DNA of 64,000 nucleotides from contig JACOUS010000039.1 of NCBI GenBank assembly GCA_016177735.1, forward strand, positions 124,001 through 188,000, read 5' to 3'. Positions within the stretch are counted from its first letter, which is position 1. Every line of letters starts with the position of its first letter. The notes under the pieces are model-generated. The model had not been told where the DNA came from. It saw nothing but the letters and a program-made list of their open reading frames with translations, and did no database searches. This DNA is from Ignavibacteriales bacterium. Its GTDB lineage: Bacteria; Bacteroidota; Ignavibacteria; Ignavibacteriales; Melioribacteraceae. The position numbers and the translations under genes were made by a program. Below are positions 50,761 to 61,712 of the stretch, one piece after another.

Positions 50761-50919
50761 TTATTTACAAAATAATTATTGCCCTAAGTAAAAAAATCAT
50801 TTTTGAAACGCCCCCGGCTTTTGCTTGATTTACTCCGCCGTATTAAACTGCTTCATTCACCTTGTTGAACAGCACAACAACTCAACTCTTTGCTCAGATT
50901 AACTATGAAGGAATCTTCA

Positions 50920-51288
50920 ATGCATAAAGAAAATAAATTACACGTTGTCTATTCATGTTCCGGTAGTTCAAACGTTGCACAATTAACTAATCATCTTGCG
51001 GTTAAACTCGATAGAGATGGAATTGCGGAAATGTCTTGTATTACCGGCGTTGGTGGAAATGTAAAACCGCTCGTGCATAAAGCAAAACAAGCAGAGAAAA
51101 TTATTGTAATTGACGGATGCAAATTACAATGTGCGCTTCAATGTCTGCAGAATCAAAACATTGAACCGGATATTCATTTTACGGTAACGGAAGATTTTCA
51201 GATTAAAAAAATTTTTCATGAAGATTTTTCGCCGGAAGATGCCGATAAAATTTATAATGCCGTTTCGGAAAAGATAAAAACACTATAG
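50920..51288 (+). CDS. DGC-domain putative zinc-binding protein
   Basis: 122 residues from the ATG at 50920, seven bases after AAGGA; earlier in-frame starts (TTG 50890, ATG 50905) are less well placed. Seen: VVYSCSGSSNVAQLTNHLAV near the N-terminus and IIVIDGCKLQCALQCL, the Asp-Gly-Cys motif that names the DGC family. Two more Cys follow. Members are small, often found with metal or stress genes, and their biochemical role is not settled. Possible zinc or thiolate chemistry is inferred only from the cysteines. Monocistronic in this window. Confidence 0.82.
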   Translation: MHKENKLHVVYSCSGSSNVAQLTNHLAVKLDRDGIAEMSCITGVGGNVKPLVHKAKQAEKIIVIDGCKLQCALQCLQNQNIEPDIHFTVTEDFQIKKIFHEDFSPEDADKIYNAVSEKIKTL

Positions 51289-52967: not shown

Positions 52968-52996
52968 TTGCGTCCTTTTCATAGTTGTTTCGTCTA
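52968..52996 (+). promoter_or_regulatory. Candidate ECF (SigZ) promoter of the sigma-factor operon
   Basis: TTGCGTCC (52968-52975), a 15-base spacer, CGTCTA (52991-52996). The first twelve bases (TTGCGTCCTTTT) and the CGTCTA box are repeated, with the same spacing, at 58428-58456 upstream of the second DUF5916 gene. CGTC-type -10 boxes are common for ECF sigma factors. It lies 47 bases before the first gene of the SigZ operon. The assignment to SigZ is inferred. Confidence 0.6.
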
Positions 52997-53043: not shown

Positions 53044-53379
53044 ATGATTGCACGAGTCTGGAAAGGCACTACACTTGAAAAAGATACTGAAACTTACCTT
53101 CAATATTTGGAAGAGACCGGGTTAAAAGATTACAGAAAAACAGAGGGAAACCTCGGCGTTCAGTTACTCTTAAAAACAGAAGACGGCATAAGCGAATTTG
53201 TAATAATTTCTTTGTGGGATTCGTTCGATTCAATTCGTAAATTTTCCGGCAAAAATATTAACAAAGCACGCTACTATCCGAAGGATAAAAAGTATCTGCT
53301 GAAACTTGAACCGAACGTTACTCATTACACGGTTGCAAATTTTCTTGGCATCAAAACCGATAATTCAAAATGTTGTTGA
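53044..53379 (+). CDS. Small antibiotic-biosynthesis-monooxygenase-like (ABM) protein
   Basis: 111 residues from the ATG at 53044, preceded by AAGGG; the longer open frame back to 52861 runs through the promoter candidate and is not coding. The sequence (MIARVWKGTTLEKDTETYLQ, later FVIISLWDSFDSIRKFSG) has the ferredoxin-like alpha-beta pattern of ABM dimers. Such proteins include heme- or quinone-modifying monooxygenases and many of unknown role. It ends in Cys-Cys, and the sigma factor that follows 24 bases later also has a Cys-rich end; a thiol or metal link is speculation. First gene of the SigZ operon. Confidence 0.8.
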   Translation: MIARVWKGTTLEKDTETYLQYLEETGLKDYRKTEGNLGVQLLLKTEDGISEFVIISLWDSFDSIRKFSGKNINKARYYPKDKKYLLKLEPNVTHYTVANFLGIKTDNSKCC

Positions 53380-53403
53380 TAATAAAACAAGCAACGGGAA
53401 ATT

Positions 53404-53994
53404 ATGAACAAGAACGAATTAAATATGATAGTCTCTACCGAAAAAATCTGGAAAGAATTTTATGATAAGCTGAAAAGCTTCGTTCAACTACGTGTATCTG
53501 CAAAAGATGATGCCGAAGATATTGTCCAGGAAGTTTTTATCCGCATACATAATAAAATTGATACGCTCAAGGATAATCAAAAATTAGAAAGCTGGATATA
53601 CCAGATAGCGCGAAACGCAATCATAGATTACTACCGCCGCAAAAAAGAGAAGATAGAACTTCGTGATGATTTCAAGATTGATGAAGATTCCGAAAACGAT
53701 GCAATGAAAAGATTATCGCCAAGCATAATTAAAATGATAGACCATCTTCCCTATATTTACAAAGAGGCAATCTTACTAACCGAATACAAAGGTTTGAAGC
53801 AGAAAGAACTTGCTGATAGTTTAGGCATTTCATTAACCGGCGCCAAATCGCGCGTACAGCGCGGCAGAAAGCTTTTGAAAGAAATGCTGCACGATTGCTG
53901 TGCATTCGAATTTGACAGCATCGGCAAATTGACCGGCTATTGCGAAAAATCGAAATGCTGTTCCCGGTTTGTTGAGCTTCGCGGGAAGTTGTGA
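53404..53994 (+). CDS. sigZ: RNA polymerase ECF sigma factor, SigZ type
   Basis: 196 residues. Region 2 (FVQLRVSAKDDAEDIVQEVF, with IRIHNKIDTLKDNQKLESWI after it) and the DYYRRKKEK patch bind core enzyme and the -10 box. Region 4 (EAILLTEYKGLKQKELADSL, GISLTGAKSRVQRGRKLLKE) is the -35-binding helix-turn-helix. The tail LHDCCAFEFDSIGKLTGYCE plus KSKCC carries five Cys and matches the end seen in SigZ proteins; it may sense metal or redox state. No anti-sigma gene follows. Instead a DapB-like and an AraC gene do. I think it drives its own operon and the 58.5 kb gene (see findings). Confidence 0.9.
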   Translation: MNKNELNMIVSTEKIWKEFYDKLKSFVQLRVSAKDDAEDIVQEVFIRIHNKIDTLKDNQKLESWIYQIARNAIIDYYRRKKEKIELRDDFKIDEDSENDAMKRLSPSIIKMIDHLPYIYKEAILLTEYKGLKQKELADSLGISLTGAKSRVQRGRKLLKEMLHDCCAFEFDSIGKLTGYCEKSKCCSRFVELRGKL

Positions 53995-54023
53995 TTCACA
54001 AAAAAAATAATCAGAGGTAAGCA

Positions 54024-54821
54024 ATGATAAAAGTTTGTGTTGCCGGCGCAACCGGAAATGTTGGGAGTATTCTCGCAAAAGAAATCAACAACTCGCCGCT
54101 GTTTTCTTTAACGGAAGCGATATCGAAAAGTAACGCCGGTAAAAATCTTGGAGAAATTATTAACGAACCCGATATTAATTTGACACTTAAAGGTGACGTT
54201 GAAGAATTGGGAAACAAATCCGTTGATGTTCTGATTGATTACACAACTCCTTCTTCAGTAAAAAGAAATGTTGAGACTGCAATATCGAAAGGGACCAATG
54301 TTGTAATCGGAACTTCGGGATTATCGGACACGGACTATGAAGAAATAAATGAACTCGCATTGAGAAATAAAGTTGGAGCTTTTGCCGCCGGAAATTTTTC
54401 CATAACGTCTGCATTGATGCAGTACTTTGCAAAAATTGCCGCCAAACATATCGATACATGGGAAATTATTGATTACGCACCAGATACCAAAGTTGACGCA
54501 CCGAGCGGAACTACGCGCGAGCTATCGTTTGAATTATCTAAAATAAAAAAACCGTCATGGCGTGTTCCGATAGAATCTAATATCGGTTTACGGGAAAGCA
54601 GAGGCGCCGAATTGAACGGTTCTCAAATTCATTCTATCCGCGTGCCCGGATTCTATTCATCTTCCGAAATTATTTTTGGATTGGATGGCGAGAAGTTAAC
54701 ATTGCGTCACGACTCGATCAGTTACAAACCTTACGTGCAAGGAACATTACTTGCCGCAAGCAAAGTTGTAGAATTTATCGGCTTGAAAAGAGGAATCATT
54801 TCTTTGCTGGATATTTTATAA
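54024..54821 (+). CDS. DapB-like 4-hydroxy-tetrahydrodipicolinate reductase family protein (divergent)
   Basis: 265 residues, full DapB length. N-terminal dinucleotide site CVAGATGNVGSILAKE; DYTTPSS; GTSGLSD; AAGNFSITSALM; and KVDAPSGT all fall in DapB order. But the usual ExHHxxKxDAPSGT is IIDYAPDTKVDAPSGT: the lysine is kept and the catalytic His-His pair is absent. I recall other DapB-annotated proteins with an 'EIIDYA' version, so this may be a known subfamily rather than a local loss. Its place between a sigma factor and an AraC regulator suggests a job other than routine lysine synthesis. Whether the genome has a second, canonical dapB cannot be seen here. It overlaps the next gene by one base. 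Confidence 0.82.
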   Translation: MIKVCVAGATGNVGSILAKEINNSPLFSLTEAISKSNAGKNLGEIINEPDINLTLKGDVEELGNKSVDVLIDYTTPSSVKRNVETAISKGTNVVIGTSGLSDTDYEEINELALRNKVGAFAAGNFSITSALMQYFAKIAAKHIDTWEIIDYAPDTKVDAPSGTTRELSFELSKIKKPSWRVPIESNIGLRESRGAELNGSQIHSIRVPGFYSSSEIIFGLDGEKLTLRHDSISYKPYVQGTLLAASKVVEFIGLKRGIISLLDIL

Positions 54822-55714
54822 TGAGCGATAATACAAAAAATCTTTTTACTTCCGACTTGTTTCGTATTGAAGATTTTGAATGCAAAAAAAATTCTTCCAC
54901 ACATTTCGGAAACCAAATCTGCAATGAATATGAAATTAATTTTATCAGGAGCGGCTGTTTCTCGCTACAAATCAGGAAGAGACATTTTGATATCTATTCG
55001 GAGCGCATTCTGCTCGGTAACGCCGGTATTGAATACGCCATTGAACAAGCAGAGAGCACAGCCAGCCAAACAACAGTATTGAAAATTGAGAAAGAATTTT
55101 TAGACGATATTAAAAGTTATTACCGGAAGGGAACAAATTGTACGGCAGATTTATTCGGCAAAGATGAAAATGCCGTATTCCCTTTTCCAGTGATTAAAAC
55201 TTCACCGCTGCTCGCTTGCACACATCATTTAATCCTGAGTTCGTTGAATAACAAAACCCGGAAAGAATTTCGACTGCAGACTGAGGTGTTACTTTGTAAT
55301 CTAATCGAAGATATTTTCAAATCATTGTATTCAAATCTGCCGCCGGAACCCGATAAGACCGGATTAAATAAAAGACATATCGAAACTATTGAGCTGTCAA
55401 AAATATTTATAGAGAAAAACTTTAGCAGAGAAATTTCACTTTCCGAAATAGCCGCCAGTTCTTTTTTAAGCCCGTTCTATTTTAACAGAATATTTAAAAA
55501 ATATACAAACTTAAGTCCTTATTCGTATTTGATTCAGTTCAGATTGAAATATGCTTCTCTGCTGCTCAGAAATACTAATTTATCAGTTACCGAAATATGT
55601 TACCGGAGCGGTTTTAATAATTTTTCACATTTTGTTTCAACCTTCACAAAATTTTTTAATACCAGCCCCCGATTTTTCAGGAAATCACACACTCCTCTTC
55701 AAAACAAAAAATAA
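54821..55714 (+). CDS. AraC-family transcription regulator
   Basis: 297 residues. N-terminal cupin-like ligand part (YEINFIRSGCFSLQIRKRHF; GNAGIEYAIEQAE), then the AraC DNA-binding module: HTH1 ISLSEIAASSFLSPFYFNRI, FKKYTNLSPYSYLIQFRLKY, and HTH2 LSVTEICYRSGFNNFSHFVS with FTKFFNTSPRFFRK. Two intact helix-turn-helix units. The ATG overlaps the DapB-like stop (TAATG), so it is co-translated with it. It likely controls a nearby gene, e.g. the DUF5916 genes just downstream; ligand unknown. Confidence 0.9.
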   Translation: MSDNTKNLFTSDLFRIEDFECKKNSSTHFGNQICNEYEINFIRSGCFSLQIRKRHFDIYSERILLGNAGIEYAIEQAESTASQTTVLKIEKEFLDDIKSYYRKGTNCTADLFGKDENAVFPFPVIKTSPLLACTHHLILSSLNNKTRKEFRLQTEVLLCNLIEDIFKSLYSNLPPEPDKTGLNKRHIETIELSKIFIEKNFSREISLSEIAASSFLSPFYFNRIFKKYTNLSPYSYLIQFRLKYASLLLRNTNLSVTEICYRSGFNNFSHFVSTFTKFFNTSPRFFRKSHTPLQNKK

Positions 55715-55830
55715 TTTGAGAAAGAGTAATCATTTCCCGCAAACCATCATAAGAAAAAAATAAAAAGCAATATCCCGAAAGTTTTCTTTATCACTTCCCT
55801 CTATCATTGTGCATCAAAGGGGGAAGTTTT

Positions 55831-57993
55831 ATGCGAACAAAGTTATACATCTTCATCGCACTTTTTTTATTCACAGCATCAATCATTTTCTGCACCGGAA
55901 ATAAATTGAGTAGAACTGCCCCCAAACATGACGGCGCTCCAAAGATTGACGGAATTTTAGACGAAGATATTTGGAAACAAAGTCTTGTAATTGACAATTT
56001 CACACAGCGGTTTCCGAAAGAAGGCAACTCACCAACCGAAAAAACTGTTGTTCATATTTTTTACACACCCACTTCTCTTTATATCGGAGTTCAAGCGTTC
56101 GATTCGCAGCCGGATAAAATTTTCGCAAGTGCAATGAGACGGGACGATTTCAGCATAACCGAAAACGATCAATTCGTTATTGCAATCGATTCATACAACG
56201 ACGGACGAAACGGTTACTGGTTTTCTACAAATCCACTCGGGGTAAAAGTAGATGCTCAATTTTTTGACGAAGGCGAAATTTGGGAATCGAACTGGGACGG
56301 CATCTGGAATTGTGAAGCCGTAATTCACGAATCCGGCTGGAGCGCCGAACTCGAAATACCGTTTTCAACTTTGCGATTCAACAACGGTGATGATGTAACA
56401 ATGGGCATCAATTTGTTCCGCAGAATTATTAGAACAAACGAACAAATTTTTTCTCCGCTCATTCCACTTTCGGTTCCGTACGGTACGCCGCGAGTTTCGT
56501 TTGCGAACAAATTTGTTTTCAGCGGCATCGATAAAAGCAGAAGTTTGAAATTTGAGCCTTATGTTCTCGGCAAATATGTTTCTGAAAAAAATTCAGAGAC
56601 AGATAAAGACGGAGACGTTGGCTTCGATCTTCGTTATAACATTACGGATAATTTTGTAACCAACTTTTCATACAACATCGATTTCGCCCAAGCAGAAGTT
56701 GACGATCAGCAGATTAACTTAACGCGCTTCAATTTGTTCTATCCTGAAAAGAGGGATTTTTTTTTGGAGAACAGCGGAATCTTTTCTGTAGGTATGCCGC
56801 AAGAAAATGAAATTTTCTTCAGCAGAAAAATCGGTTTGAAAGAAACGTCGCCGAATAATTTCGAGCCGATACCGATTCAACTCGGGTTGAAGGCAACCGG
56901 AAAAGTGAGCGACTTAAATATTGGAGTGATGAATTTACAAACGAGATCAGCCGGAGAAATCCCGTCACAAAATTTTTCAGTTGCGCGAATCAAGTACGAA
57001 TTGCAAAACTCATATTTAAGCGCAATAACAACCAACGTTGTTGACAAAAATAATTTTGCGAACACAAGTGCAGTAGATTTTTCAGCAAATGTTTTCGGCG
57101 ATGCAAAATTTTATGGGTTTGCCGCACTGACTTCCTCAAGAAATAACAAAACAAATATCGGGAACGGTTCATCTGTATTTCTGGATTTATATCAACTCGG
57201 CGAGCGGACTTCATTTGCACTCAATTACATGTACATCGGAAAAAATTATAAACCGGAACTTGGTTTTGTTAATTGGCAAGGCGTTAATCGTTATAATGCA
57301 ACTCTTACAGTGCCGTTTTATATCGAAACAGAAACACTTCGAAGAATTATTCCACGTTTCTATTCTCTAAATATTTTTAATCTCGACGGCAAACGTGAAT
57401 ATCTCGAACAAACATTCGAATTCGGTTTTGAATTTCAATCCGAAGACGTAATCAAATTTTGGGCGGCGCAATATTTTGAACATGTTCCTTTCGATTACAG
57501 CATTTTCAAATCACACTTACTTCACAAAGGTGAATACAATCATTTCAGGTACGGTTTGTCGATCGATTCCAAACCCGGCAGAATTTTTTCCGGCGGTCTA
57601 TCTCTTTCTCTTGGAGAACTATACGGCGGAAGCATGTACAAAATAAATCCTTCCATCAATTGGAAGATCAATAAAAATCTTACTGTCACTCAGTTTTACA
57701 GTGCCAATTTTGTCGAATTGCAAAACGAAAAATTCACCACACAACTTTTCAGAACGGTTTTTAATTACTCGTTCAATACACATCTGAGTCTCAGCGGTTC
57801 GGTTCAATACAACAACAGCAATGAATCAATTTTATTGAATCTGCGCACGTCATACATTCCATCCGATGGCATCGCACTTTATCTTATCATTAACAGCACT
57901 ACTGAAAACTCAGATATCTTCAGAAAAAGTAACTTAACAGAAGAGACGACAAAAATGGTTCTGCTGAAATTCAATTACCTTTTTAAAATATAA
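55831..57993 (+). CDS. Outer-membrane protein, CBM9-like domain + DUF5916 barrel (copy 1)
   Basis: 720 residues from the ATG at 55831, with GGGGGA upstream; a TTG at 55807 is less likely. A signal or lipoprotein-like leader precedes the CBM9-like N-terminal domain (KIDGILDEDIWKQSLVIDNF; FYTPTSLYIGVQAFD; DQFVIAIDSYNDGRNGYWF). A conserved NYNIDFAQAEVDDQQINLTR-type segment and YPEKRDFFLENSGIF open the barrel, which then runs to the C-terminus. This family is common in Bacteroidota; several members are tied to uptake or surface-exposed modification of polymers, but function is open. Paralogue of the gene at 58493. Confidence 0.88.
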   Translation: MRTKLYIFIALFLFTASIIFCTGNKLSRTAPKHDGAPKIDGILDEDIWKQSLVIDNFTQRFPKEGNSPTEKTVVHIFYTPTSLYIGVQAFDSQPDKIFASAMRRDDFSITENDQFVIAIDSYNDGRNGYWFSTNPLGVKVDAQFFDEGEIWESNWDGIWNCEAVIHESGWSAELEIPFSTLRFNNGDDVTMGINLFRRIIRTNEQIFSPLIPLSVPYGTPRVSFANKFVFSGIDKSRSLKFEPYVLGKYVSEKNSETDKDGDVGFDLRYNITDNFVTNFSYNIDFAQAEVDDQQINLTRFNLFYPEKRDFFLENSGIFSVGMPQENEIFFSRKIGLKETSPNNFEPIPIQLGLKATGKVSDLNIGVMNLQTRSAGEIPSQNFSVARIKYELQNSYLSAITTNVVDKNNFANTSAVDFSANVFGDAKFYGFAALTSSRNNKTNIGNGSSVFLDLYQLGERTSFALNYMYIGKNYKPELGFVNWQGVNRYNATLTVPFYIETETLRRIIPRFYSLNIFNLDGKREYLEQTFEFGFEFQSEDVIKFWAAQYFEHVPFDYSIFKSHLLHKGEYNHFRYGLSIDSKPGRIFSGGLSLSLGELYGGSMYKINPSINWKINKNLTVTQFYSANFVELQNEKFTTQLFRTVFNYSFNTHLSLSGSVQYNNSNESILLNLRTSYIPSDGIALYLIINSTTENSDIFRKSNLTEETTKMVLLKFNYLFKI

Positions 57994-58007
57994 CGGGGGA
58001 AAAATTT

Positions 58008-58418
58008 ATGGACGAGAAAATAGTTCTTTCAAAATTTAGTGAAGAAGAAAAAACAACACTCAAGACAATTGACGAGTTTAACAAAGCTCTTGTAGAAAAC
58101 GATCTCAAAAAATATTTCTCTTTTATCGATGAAGATTTCACAACTTTTCTCTCAAACTCTCCTTACCGGATTGACGGCGTGTACGACGACGAAGAAGAAC
58201 TACAAAACATGTACAGGACAAAACAATTTACTCTGTTTGAAGAGATGCAGCCAGCAGTGCAGTTATTCGGGGACTGCGCAGTTGTAACTTATCATGTCCG
58301 TGCAATTGTAGAATCAAAAGAAGGCGGCACAACTTTGTACATGAAAGAAACCGATGTGCTTGTTAAAAAATCCGGCACTTGGAAAGTTGTGCACGTACAT
58401 ATTTCCGGCACAAAATGA
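58008..58418 (+). CDS. NTF2-like / SnoaL-like domain protein
   Basis: 136 residues. The pattern KTIDEFNKALVENDLKKYFS, DEDFTTFLSNSPYRIDG, FGDCAVVTYHVRAIVES and a C-terminal TWKVVHVHIS strand fits the SnoaL/NTF2 cone fold (DUF4440-type). Such small dimers bind hydrophobic ligands or act as ketosteroid-isomerase-like enzymes. No signal peptide, so cytoplasmic. It is 14 bases after the first DUF5916 gene and is probably co-transcribed. The SigZ-type promoter for the next gene begins only 9 bases after its stop. Confidence 0.8.
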   Translation: MDEKIVLSKFSEEEKTTLKTIDEFNKALVENDLKKYFSFIDEDFTTFLSNSPYRIDGVYDDEEELQNMYRTKQFTLFEEMQPAVQLFGDCAVVTYHVRAIVESKEGGTTLYMKETDVLVKKSGTWKVVHVHISGTK

Positions 58419-58427
58419 TGGAACAGC

Positions 58428-58456
58428 TTGCGTCCTTTTGAGCATCCTTCCGTCTA
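58428..58456 (+). promoter_or_regulatory. Candidate ECF (SigZ) promoter upstream of second DUF5916 gene
   Basis: TTGCGTCC (58428-58435), 15-base spacer, CGTCTA (58451-58456), identical in both boxes and in spacing to the one at 52968-52996. It lies 36 bases before the ATG of the outer-membrane protein gene. These two are the only copies I could find by eye. Confidence 0.6.
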
Positions 58457-58492
58457 TGAAAATAAAAAATCAATTATTAAGGAAGGAGCAAA

Positions 58493-60643
58493 ATGAAACC
58501 AAATAAATATTTCTTTCTAATTCTTTTTCTTTTGTCCGGCAAAATATTTGCCGGAAATAATTTATCCGTTGAGCCGGTAAAATCGGCACCGGTTTTTGAC
58601 GGCAAAGTTGATGAGCTTTATAAATCCGGTATTCTTTTCAATTCATTCAAACAGCTTGAGCCGGATATTTTTGCAGAGCCGTCCGTAAAAACAGAAATCT
58701 ATTTTTTGTACGATCAGCAAAACATTTACATTGCCGGAAATTTATATCAACCGAAAAACGGAATTAAATCGAGCAACGGCAGAAAAGATTCACCGATAAT
58801 CCTTGACGGCGACGCAATTGGAATCGTGATCGATCCGCTCAACAACGGCAACTCTGCATATTTCTTTTCGATTAACCCATCGAATGCAATTGTTGATGGA
58901 ACGCTTGATGCTTACGGTATATGGGATTTCAAATGGGATGCAATATTTAATTCTGCCACTTCAATTGAAGATGATCACTGGAGTTTTGAATTTCAGCTCC
59001 CCCTTTCATCAATCAGCTTTCAGGATAAAGATGAACAGGATTGGGGCTTAATGTTCAGACGCGAATATGCAGCGACAAAAGAAATTATTTTAAGTCAGAT
59101 TGTTGATAAGAATCAGCCGTTCAGAATAAGCGACTTTCATAAAATCAAAGGTCTCGCCGGATTGAAGAAAGAAACAAATTTATTCTTCACGCCATATTCA
59201 TTTTATTCATTTAGAAATAACATCAACACAAAACAGAATGAAAGTAAAACAAAATTCGGCGGCGAAGTGAAATATAATCCGCTATCATCGATGACGATAC
59301 TTGCAACAGTGAACCCTGATTTTGCGCAGATTGAAACAGATAAATTAATTATCAACGTTGATGATGTACCGACTTCGTACCCAGAGAAAAGACCTTTCTT
59401 CACCGAGTCGAGTGATTTGTATCCGGGACTTGCGGTAAATACACGAAACATTGAAGATATTGATGTTGGAATCAAACTGAGAGATGTGCGCGATAATATT
59501 AAGTACGACCTCACATGGGTTTTGGACAGCAAACAAAATAAATGGTACACCGGTGATTTCAGATGGACGGACAACCAAACTTTTTATGTTGATTTGATCG
59601 GGGGGATCAAACAACAGAAAGAAAGAACTGATTACAACTTCACAACAAATTTAAGAACGTGGTTTTTCGATAAAAGATTAACCGCTTATACATGGTTCGG
59701 AACAATAAATAAACAGAACGCAAAAAATGAATTTGAGTCGGTCAATTCCGTCCGCTGGGTAACACGCGAGCTTACAATTGCGGTTTGGAATCACTTTAAA
59801 ACAAAATACTACAACCCGAACATTACCGGTCACAACACTCTATCGAACGAAATACTTTTTGATGCGTGGATTTCATATTCGTCAATTAACGAAAGCGGAT
59901 TTTTTAGAGTAATTACGCCGCAGATTAAAAATCAATATGTGTCGTTCTATACAAATCCGGAACTTTCATACGACTATTTAACACTTTCATTAAACACTAC
60001 TCTGAATTTGGGAAATGCGCTTGGTAACTGGAATTTTGATATAAGCTACTTCCCCTCTGCAAAAAAATATTTCCGCTATAGAAATGTTGACGGATTTTCC
60101 GAAGATAAAATATTTCAAGATGCGTTCAGTGATTTTGTACTTGTTGAGCAGAATAAGGACGGCTGGCAGTTAGATTTTAATTCGGATTACTCAAAAATAT
60201 TCGGCACAAAATTTTCATACGATAATCGTCAAGTCAGAAAATCTTCCACCGATAATTTTTCAGGCGAGCTTTATTGGAAGATTGCACCAACTTCAGTAAT
60301 AACATACTCGTTGGAATATGTTAATCTCAGCGGTTCGGAATATCAGAACAAGTACAATCAGGTTATTCACAGAGTAAAAGCAGAGTATAACATCACAGAT
60401 AAAATTAATCTGCGCGGAATTGTGCAATTGAATGATGCAGCGATGACATCTCTTGATAATTATGAAAGCAGTAATCCGGTAATTAATTTCACACTCTCGT
60501 GGCAGTACATGAGCGGAAGTTACATTTATCTTGTTTACAACAAACAAGAATTAAATTGGAGCGACCGGGTAAATTCTTCTGCGACAAAATTTAACGATCA
60601 ATCTATCACACTGAAAATCAATAATGTATTCAATATTTATTAA
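58493..60643 (+). CDS. Outer-membrane protein, CBM9-like domain + DUF5916 barrel (copy 2)
   Basis: 716 residues. Signal peptide (YFFLILFLLSGKIFAG). N-terminal CBM9-like region (PVFDGKVDELYKSGILFNSF; YDQQNIYIAGNLYQP; DAIGIVIDPLNNGNSAYFFS). The barrel marker ATVNPDFAQIETDKLIINVD and YPEKRPFFTESSDL follow, then strand-rich sequence to the end. It shares domain order and the NxDFAQ and YPEKR(P/D)FF motifs with the protein at 55831, but is clearly diverged. GGAGG-like GGAAGGAG precedes the ATG. It has its own SigZ-type promoter candidate and a hairpin terminator after it. Confidence 0.88.
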   Translation: MKPNKYFFLILFLLSGKIFAGNNLSVEPVKSAPVFDGKVDELYKSGILFNSFKQLEPDIFAEPSVKTEIYFLYDQQNIYIAGNLYQPKNGIKSSNGRKDSPIILDGDAIGIVIDPLNNGNSAYFFSINPSNAIVDGTLDAYGIWDFKWDAIFNSATSIEDDHWSFEFQLPLSSISFQDKDEQDWGLMFRREYAATKEIILSQIVDKNQPFRISDFHKIKGLAGLKKETNLFFTPYSFYSFRNNINTKQNESKTKFGGEVKYNPLSSMTILATVNPDFAQIETDKLIINVDDVPTSYPEKRPFFTESSDLYPGLAVNTRNIEDIDVGIKLRDVRDNIKYDLTWVLDSKQNKWYTGDFRWTDNQTFYVDLIGGIKQQKERTDYNFTTNLRTWFFDKRLTAYTWFGTINKQNAKNEFESVNSVRWVTRELTIAVWNHFKTKYYNPNITGHNTLSNEILFDAWISYSSINESGFFRVITPQIKNQYVSFYTNPELSYDYLTLSLNTTLNLGNALGNWNFDISYFPSAKKYFRYRNVDGFSEDKIFQDAFSDFVLVEQNKDGWQLDFNSDYSKIFGTKFSYDNRQVRKSSTDNFSGELYWKIAPTSVITYSLEYVNLSGSEYQNKYNQVIHRVKAEYNITDKINLRGIVQLNDAAMTSLDNYESSNPVINFTLSWQYMSGSYIYLVYNKQELNWSDRVNSSATKFNDQSITLKINNVFNIY

Positions 60644-60700
60644 TAGCAGATAGGAGTGCAATTTCTTACACCACATAAATCTAATGAACAAAAAACAATT

Positions 60701-60731
60701 GCCGCGACTTTTGGAGGTCGTGGCTATTTTT
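60701..60731 (+). terminator. Hairpin terminator after the second DUF5916 gene
   Basis: GCCGCGAC (60701-60708) and GTCGTGGC (60717-60724) form a stem with one G-U pair, followed by TATTTTT. Text of this type ('cgacttttggaggtcgtggc') also recalls dispersed intergenic hairpins of Bacteroidota, so it may be repeat-derived. Confidence 0.65.
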
Positions 60732-60791
60732 AATAATACTGAACCGTTCGAGTAAACTAATTTGTAATTAAGAACTTTTAGGAAACAAATA

Positions 60792-61712
60792 ATGATACCA
60801 TTATCGATAATCCTGATAATTTTATTAACTGTTGGATGCGGCACATCGCAGATGTATAAAACTCCTGAACACGAGAGAAAAATCATGGAGATTTATAATT
60901 CCAAACTTGCGCAATGGACCGTTGAGTTTGATACTATTAACATAAAAACCAAACTTGGTATAACTCATATTACCGCAAGCGGAGAAAAAGAAAATCAGCC
61001 GGTAATATTATTGCACGCAATGGGGTTAACATCAACTATGTGGCTGGATAACATTAGCGAATTAAGCAAGCACTTCCGTGTGTACGCCGTCGATCTGCTT
61101 GGCGATATCGGCAAAAGCAGATTATTTGATACCGGAGAATATTTAGACAGCGATGGAAAATACAGTCAATGGCTTTCAGAAATTTGTGATTCGCTAAAGA
61201 TTGAGAAAGCTGATTTTGTAGGCGCTTCGTTTGGCGGGTGGATCACAATTAGTCACGCAATTTTTTCTCACCAAAGAGTTAATAAAATTGTTTTGTTGGG
61301 ACCGATGGGGTTAACCAGCACTTCATTCAAAACAATTTGGAGAATTCTTTCTCTTGTTTGGTTTCCTACCGATTCAAAAAAGAAAGATATGCTTGAATGG
61401 GCACTCGGGAATAATCCAAGAACAATTTCCAGATTTTCAGAACATATGTGGCTCGCAATGGATTGCAAAGGTTTTATGGCAACACCATGGGCATTTGATG
61501 AGGAAGAGCTACAAAAAATAAAAGCACGTACTCTATTATTATTAGGTGAGAAAGACGATTTGATTGGCTCAATAGAAGAAGTGAAATCTAACGCTGAAAA
61601 AAATATTGCAAATGTTGAAATAGCAATCATTGAAGATGCCGGACATATGATAAATACTGACCGGCCGGAGATTACAGACAGTTTAATAACTCGTTTTTTA
61701 AAAAGTAACTAA
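60792..61712 (+). CDS. Alpha/beta-hydrolase lipoprotein
   Basis: 306 residues. N-terminal lipoprotein signal with lipobox LTVGC (Cys at residue 17), so it is probably membrane-anchored in the envelope. Alpha/beta-hydrolase features: oxyanion turn LLHAMGLTSTMW, nucleophile elbow VGASFGGW, acid in LLGEKDDLIG and His in DAGHMI. All three catalytic residues are present. Substrate not predictable; esterases, lactonases and C-C hydrolases share this layout. Preceded by its own 148-base gap containing the hairpin above. Confidence 0.88.
   Translation: MIPLSIILIILLTVGCGTSQMYKTPEHERKIMEIYNSKLAQWTVEFDTINIKTKLGITHITASGEKENQPVILLHAMGLTSTMWLDNISELSKHFRVYAVDLLGDIGKSRLFDTGEYLDSDGKYSQWLSEICDSLKIEKADFVGASFGGWITISHAIFSHQRVNKIVLLGPMGLTSTSFKTIWRILSLVWFPTDSKKKDMLEWALGNNPRTISRFSEHMWLAMDCKGFMATPWAFDEEELQKIKARTLLLLGEKDDLIGSIEEVKSNAEKNIANVEIAIIEDAGHMINTDRPEITDSLITRFLKSN

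Follow-up and report, generated by a model that had tools for sequence, protein, structure and literature searches.

We analysed a 64,000-nucleotide stretch of an Ignavibacteriales bacterium genome (contig JACOUS010000039.1, positions 124,001 to 188,000; hereafter, the window), in which an island of eight genes includes sigZ, coding for an extracytoplasmic function (ECF) sigma factor that passes both curated SigZ cut-offs (TIGR02959 and NF007215). The gene for a small ABM-like protein precedes sigZ, and genes for a DapB-like reductase, an AraC-type regulator, a DUF5916 protein (DUF5916-1), an NTF2-like protein, a second DUF5916 protein (DUF5916-2) and an alpha/beta-hydrolase follow it (Table 1). 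As described in a first-pass annotation of the island, all eight open reading frames (ORFs) lie on the forward strand; the family labels given there were recovered as named, except that the ABM protein scores under the PF03992 cut-off. On reading the window sequence we spotted a common promoter-like element, TGCGTCCTTTT-N11-CGTCTA, which stands before both the ABM-sigZ pair and DUF5916-2; the two copies are identical at 16 fixed bases and have equal 11-base spacers. The core GCGTCC-N14..16-CGTCTA occurs at exactly two sites in the 3.87-Mb genome, and the reversed pattern at none. The comparisons described below make it likely that SigZ governs a small regulon, which would respond to metalloids through a Cys-rich tail of the sigma factor and would be switched on at this element.

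Three sets of loci were compared: 80 SigZ loci from named genomes, selected by likeness to the SigZ of the window and not by their neighbours; 40 SigZ or SigZ-like loci from genomes of the window's phylum; and 18 control ECF loci, all from genomes of that phylum. The SigZ cut-off was passed in 10 of the 296 phylum genomes, and none of the other genomes listed for the window's family or order passed it. A score of at least 15 over 17 positions of the element was reached at 69/80 named SigZ loci, which come from many phyla, at 20/40 phylum loci and at 0/18 controls, whereas Markov shuffles attained it at 1/80, 0/40 and 0/18 loci, respectively. The strict pattern gave 54 sites in 46 of the 80 named loci, where 0.3 are expected from shuffles and the reversed pattern gave 2. 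The TGC preceding GTCC, which is outside the search pattern, is 96–100% conserved in 47 sites, and for 41 of the 54 strict sites an ORF starts no more than 150 bases away. A repeat or a chance match, rather than a promoter, would agree with the whole-genome searches: the strict pattern was found in 16 of the 296 phylum genomes, with a low, nearly chance-level frequency away from SigZ loci, and the reversed control pattern is also present in many of them. It would also agree with a third candidate element before panB-panC-coaBC (positions 34179-34204 of contig C7), which matches 15 of 17 positions by eye, lies in a repeat-like tract and was treated as chance. Such an explanation is nevertheless hardly credible in view of the difference between SigZ and control loci, the single spacing in 47 of 55 element sites and the location of the sites, mostly 25–77 bases before the ORF start. 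From these comparisons we infer that TGCGTCCTTTT-N11-CGTCTA is a SigZ promoter.

Table 1. Genes and sequence features of the sigZ island (positions in the window)
Feature	Position	Strand	Supporting data
SigZ promoter-like element 1, before ABM-sigZ	52969..52996	+	17/17 consensus positions
Small ABM-like protein; its gene leads the sigZ unit	53044..53379	+	PF03992, 16.2 bits, below the cut-off of 23.1
sigZ, ECF sigma factor	53404..53994	+	TIGR02959, 215.3 (cut-off 168.65); NF007215, 221.8 (cut-off 212)
DapB-like reductase	54024..54821	+	TIGR00036, 175.4 (cut-off 122)
AraC-type regulator	54821..55714	+	PF12833, 75 (cut-off 33.6)
DUF5916-1	55831-57993	+	PF19313, 67.5 (cut-off 22.6)
NTF2-like protein	58008-58418	+	PF08332, 49.8 (cut-off 22.1)
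SigZ promoter-like element 2, before DUF5916-2	58429..58456	+	17/17 consensus positions
DUF5916-2, CBM9-like N-terminus, predicted envelope protein	58493..60643	+	PF19313, 48.2 (cut-off 22.6)
Terminator-like hairpin after DUF5916-2	60701..60724	+	10 pairs, 6 GC
Alpha/beta-hydrolase	60792-61712	+	N-terminal lipobox-like LTVGC, read by eye

The genes next to the 54 strict sites are dominated by arsM (20 sites), followed by sigZ (8), DUF2703 (4), flavin monooxygenase (3) and arsP (3), with other ORFs at 5 sites and no called ORF at 11. arsM is thus the commonest gene after the element, and it is also the commonest neighbour of sigZ. The arsM profile was built from this commonest neighbour, and both members tested (L084 and L090) exceed the cut-off of the arsenite methyltransferase family NF008823; for Acr3, ArsC, ArsP_1 and ArsI/CadI, the identity was verified with one member each. 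The profile matched at 47/80 named, 3/40 phylum and 0/18 control loci (a second arsM profile, at 4/40 phylum loci), and at least one of arsM, acr3, arsC and arsP is present at 60/80, 11/40 and 0/18 loci, respectively. The first-pass annotation had proposed a signal-response module around an unknown compound. The arsenic genes neighbouring SigZ loci indicate that this compound is most probably an arsenic species. On a mobilizable Hymenobacter plasmid (L252), an element-like string is found just upstream of a SigZ-like gene, and an arsR-acr3-arsC operon lies 2-6 kb from that gene.

How SigZ might perceive such a compound is suggested by its C-terminus. The protein consists of sigma2 and sigma4 domains only (PF04542 and PF08281, both over cut-off) and ends in a tail with five Cys residues (C165, C166, C180, C185 and C186). 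Across 81 aligned SigZ rows, the CC pair is conserved in 79 and at least four tail Cys in 78, the consensus being CC-x-FEFD-x-x-G...C...C. In a structural model built from 63 sequences (mean predicted local distance difference test score, pLDDT, of 86), strands are predicted at residues 166-170 and 176-181, between the two Cys pairs, and solved ECF structures align to the SigZ profile only up to about position 159 of 184. No anti-sigma family matched any of the eight proteins of the island in family scans, in agreement with the first-pass annotation, which had also named the tail among the possible controls of SigZ. A C-terminal Cys-rich extension and the lack of an anti-sigma partner are features of CorE-like sigma factors (ECF44/ECF238), as described in PMC8999054, and a similar way of working may be supposed for SigZ. 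SigZ differs from CorE-like factors of group ECF44 in that these have a CXC motif between sigma2 and sigma4, whereas the corresponding linker of the window SigZ contains no Cys in translation. By analogy with CorE, the tail probably is the sensor and binds a metal(loid) directly; arsenic is preferred as the ligand because of the genes that neighbour sigZ.

The same Cys residues would also bind Zn, Cd or Cu, as those of CorE and CorE2 do according to PMC8999054. SigZ might therefore answer another thiophilic metal, or thiol or oxidative stress, with the arsenic genes being targets or co-travellers on mobile DNA, all the more as at some SigZ loci the element is present but arsenic genes are absent, and a Priestia sigZ adjoins an aldo/keto reductase gene. 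We find this unlikely, since arsM is the leading gene both around sigZ and after the element, in 11 phyla or candidate phyla.

ABM and DUF5916-2 provide a link between the window and an arsM-bearing SigZ locus. Among the 120 other SigZ loci, relatives of both recur together at one, in Stygiobacter electus (L084) of the Melioribacteraceae, whose SigZ is the sister of the window SigZ on the tree (support 99). There, the ABM relative (60% identity) is directly upstream of sigZ and the DUF5916-2 relative (48% identity) directly downstream of arsM, while two divergent elements sit between the arsM-DUF5916 pair and the methyltransferase-ABM-sigZ genes. DUF5916-1 has matches at three of the 120 loci (L077, L084 and L145), but the L084 ORF is closer to DUF5916-2 than to DUF5916-1 (728 vs 115 bits). 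AraC relatives gave weak generic matches only, at five loci, and relatives of the DapB-like, NTF2-like and hydrolase proteins were found at none of the 120. A search of 149 genomes from the class detected DUF5916-2 (at E<=1e-60) and the DapB-like protein (at E<=1e-20) in this genome only. These results also bear on the possibility that the eight genes together make up a single response unit, with SigZ controlled by the AraC protein or by a metabolite that the DapB-like or NTF2-like protein handles. The shared strand and the short gaps among ABM, sigZ, DapB-like and AraC genes would fit such a unit. It is very improbable, however, considering the restriction of the DapB-like protein to one class genome and the splitting of the island by the second promoter-like element and the terminator-like hairpin, although such hairpins are in general not enriched (8 found vs a mean of 10.1 in shuffles). 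We rejected the single eight-gene module because no other SigZ locus has relatives of the DapB-like, NTF2-like or hydrolase genes. What survives of the module, as proposed in the first-pass annotation, is the grouping of SigZ, ABM and one DUF5916 protein by the common element and the Stygiobacter locus; likewise, the recurrence at SigZ loci that it had raised for ABM, DapB-like and DUF5916 genes was borne out for ABM and DUF5916-2 at that locus, and not for the DapB-like gene.

Besides the chance-like rate of the strict pattern outside SigZ loci and the recurrence of ABM with DUF5916-2 at a single other locus, several observations weigh against a metalloid-responsive SigZ regulon. The controls represent one phylum. 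A sign test on the tree failed to link the presence of the element with arsM (2.5 vs 1.3 pairs), and none of arsM, acr3, arsC and arsP is nearby at 20/80 named and 29/40 phylum loci. On a Priestia plasmid (L251), sigZ stands beside a divergent aldo/keto reductase gene and the element was not found nearby, so the SigZ target may vary; in Bacillaceae the targets may differ. Finally, there is no arsenic gene inside the island of the window. Contig C23 of the same genome carries the genes arsR-arsM-arsC-arsP-acr3 in a row, with an ArsM 64% identical to that of Stygiobacter, and the promoter-like element was not found at this arsM-acr3 operon, which adjoins arsR. Since the arsM of this genome lies elsewhere without the element, the local SigZ regulon seems limited to ABM-sigZ (possibly together with the DapB-like and AraC genes) and DUF5916-2. 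The DapB-like gene starts 29 bases past the end of sigZ and overlaps the AraC gene by one base, and read-through from the sigZ promoter may include both. For DUF5916-1, the NTF2-like gene and the hydrolase gene, no link to the SigZ unit was found.

Taking these points into account, we propose a scenario in which the Cys-rich tail of SigZ most likely binds arsenic in some form or a comparable thiophilic metal(loid); if the tail itself senses the ligand, no anti-sigma factor would be needed. Activated SigZ would then read TGCGTCCTTTT-N11-CGTCTA and switch on its own unit, ABM-sigZ, perhaps extending into the DapB-like and AraC genes, and, separately, DUF5916-2. ABM and DUF5916-2 might in turn process an arsenical or move it across the envelope. 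In a broader form, which we put forward tentatively as possible rather than probable, SigZ would be an arsenic-sensing family present in more than ten phyla, with a tail for As(III) or methyl-As(III) and a near-invariant promoter before arsM and allied genes, and in the window and in Stygiobacter the DUF5916 surface protein would move or handle a methylated arsenical. The gene content overlaps with that of ArsR-controlled ars operons (arsM, arsC, acr3, arsP); the difference is that those are under repressor control, while activation by a sigma factor is proposed for SigZ. The table of a 2023 review (PMC10141391) gives neither a function nor an anti-sigma factor for B. subtilis SigZ, to which the present analysis would add a candidate promoter consensus and an arsenic neighbourhood. 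Our literature searches found no paper in which SigZ, or any ECF sigma factor, is connected with arsM or with arsenic regulation, although an earlier mention is possible. The SigZ question becomes directly testable, with a promoter consensus for any SigZ-bearing isolate and a candidate ligand, and, if the proposal is true, arsenic methylation in many bacteria would be under sigma factor control as well as under that of ArsR.

Several properties of individual proteins may be added. HH-x-x-K is the active-site motif of DapB. Residues IDYAPDTK of the DapB-like protein align to ELHHPHK of the M. tuberculosis enzyme, with HH replaced and only K kept. The idea that it is an extra gene copy was discarded, as it is the sole TIGR00036 match in the genome, rated 99.99% complete. 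ABM was considered as an arsenic protein in its own right, and this too was set aside: a profile search with eight sequences found no solved relative, and 12 other ABM contexts have neither an element scoring at least 14/17 nor a shared arsenic gene, showing scattered weak ArsM-profile matches and three ArsR-profile matches. ABM relatives directly adjoin other DUF5916 genes, with no sigZ, in two genomes that share this family and order (L238 27-3302 and L239 5973-9140); because DUF5916 genes are common in those genomes, we treat this adjacency as a lead only. The DUF5916 family is not confined to SigZ contexts: the genome has seven matches, five of them outside the window, and one (G000:C4:20282-22177) has an internal TAA and is perhaps a broken gene. 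The barrel label given to the DUF5916 proteins in the first-pass annotation is putative; the fold prediction of DUF5916-2 was poor (pLDDT 43). The base composition of the island resembles that of the window and so offers no hint that the island was acquired recently. At 50890-51288, two genes before the ABM-sigZ pair, the window encodes a DGC-domain protein (PF08859, 118 bits), a family also present at three other SigZ loci (L142, L152 and L161).
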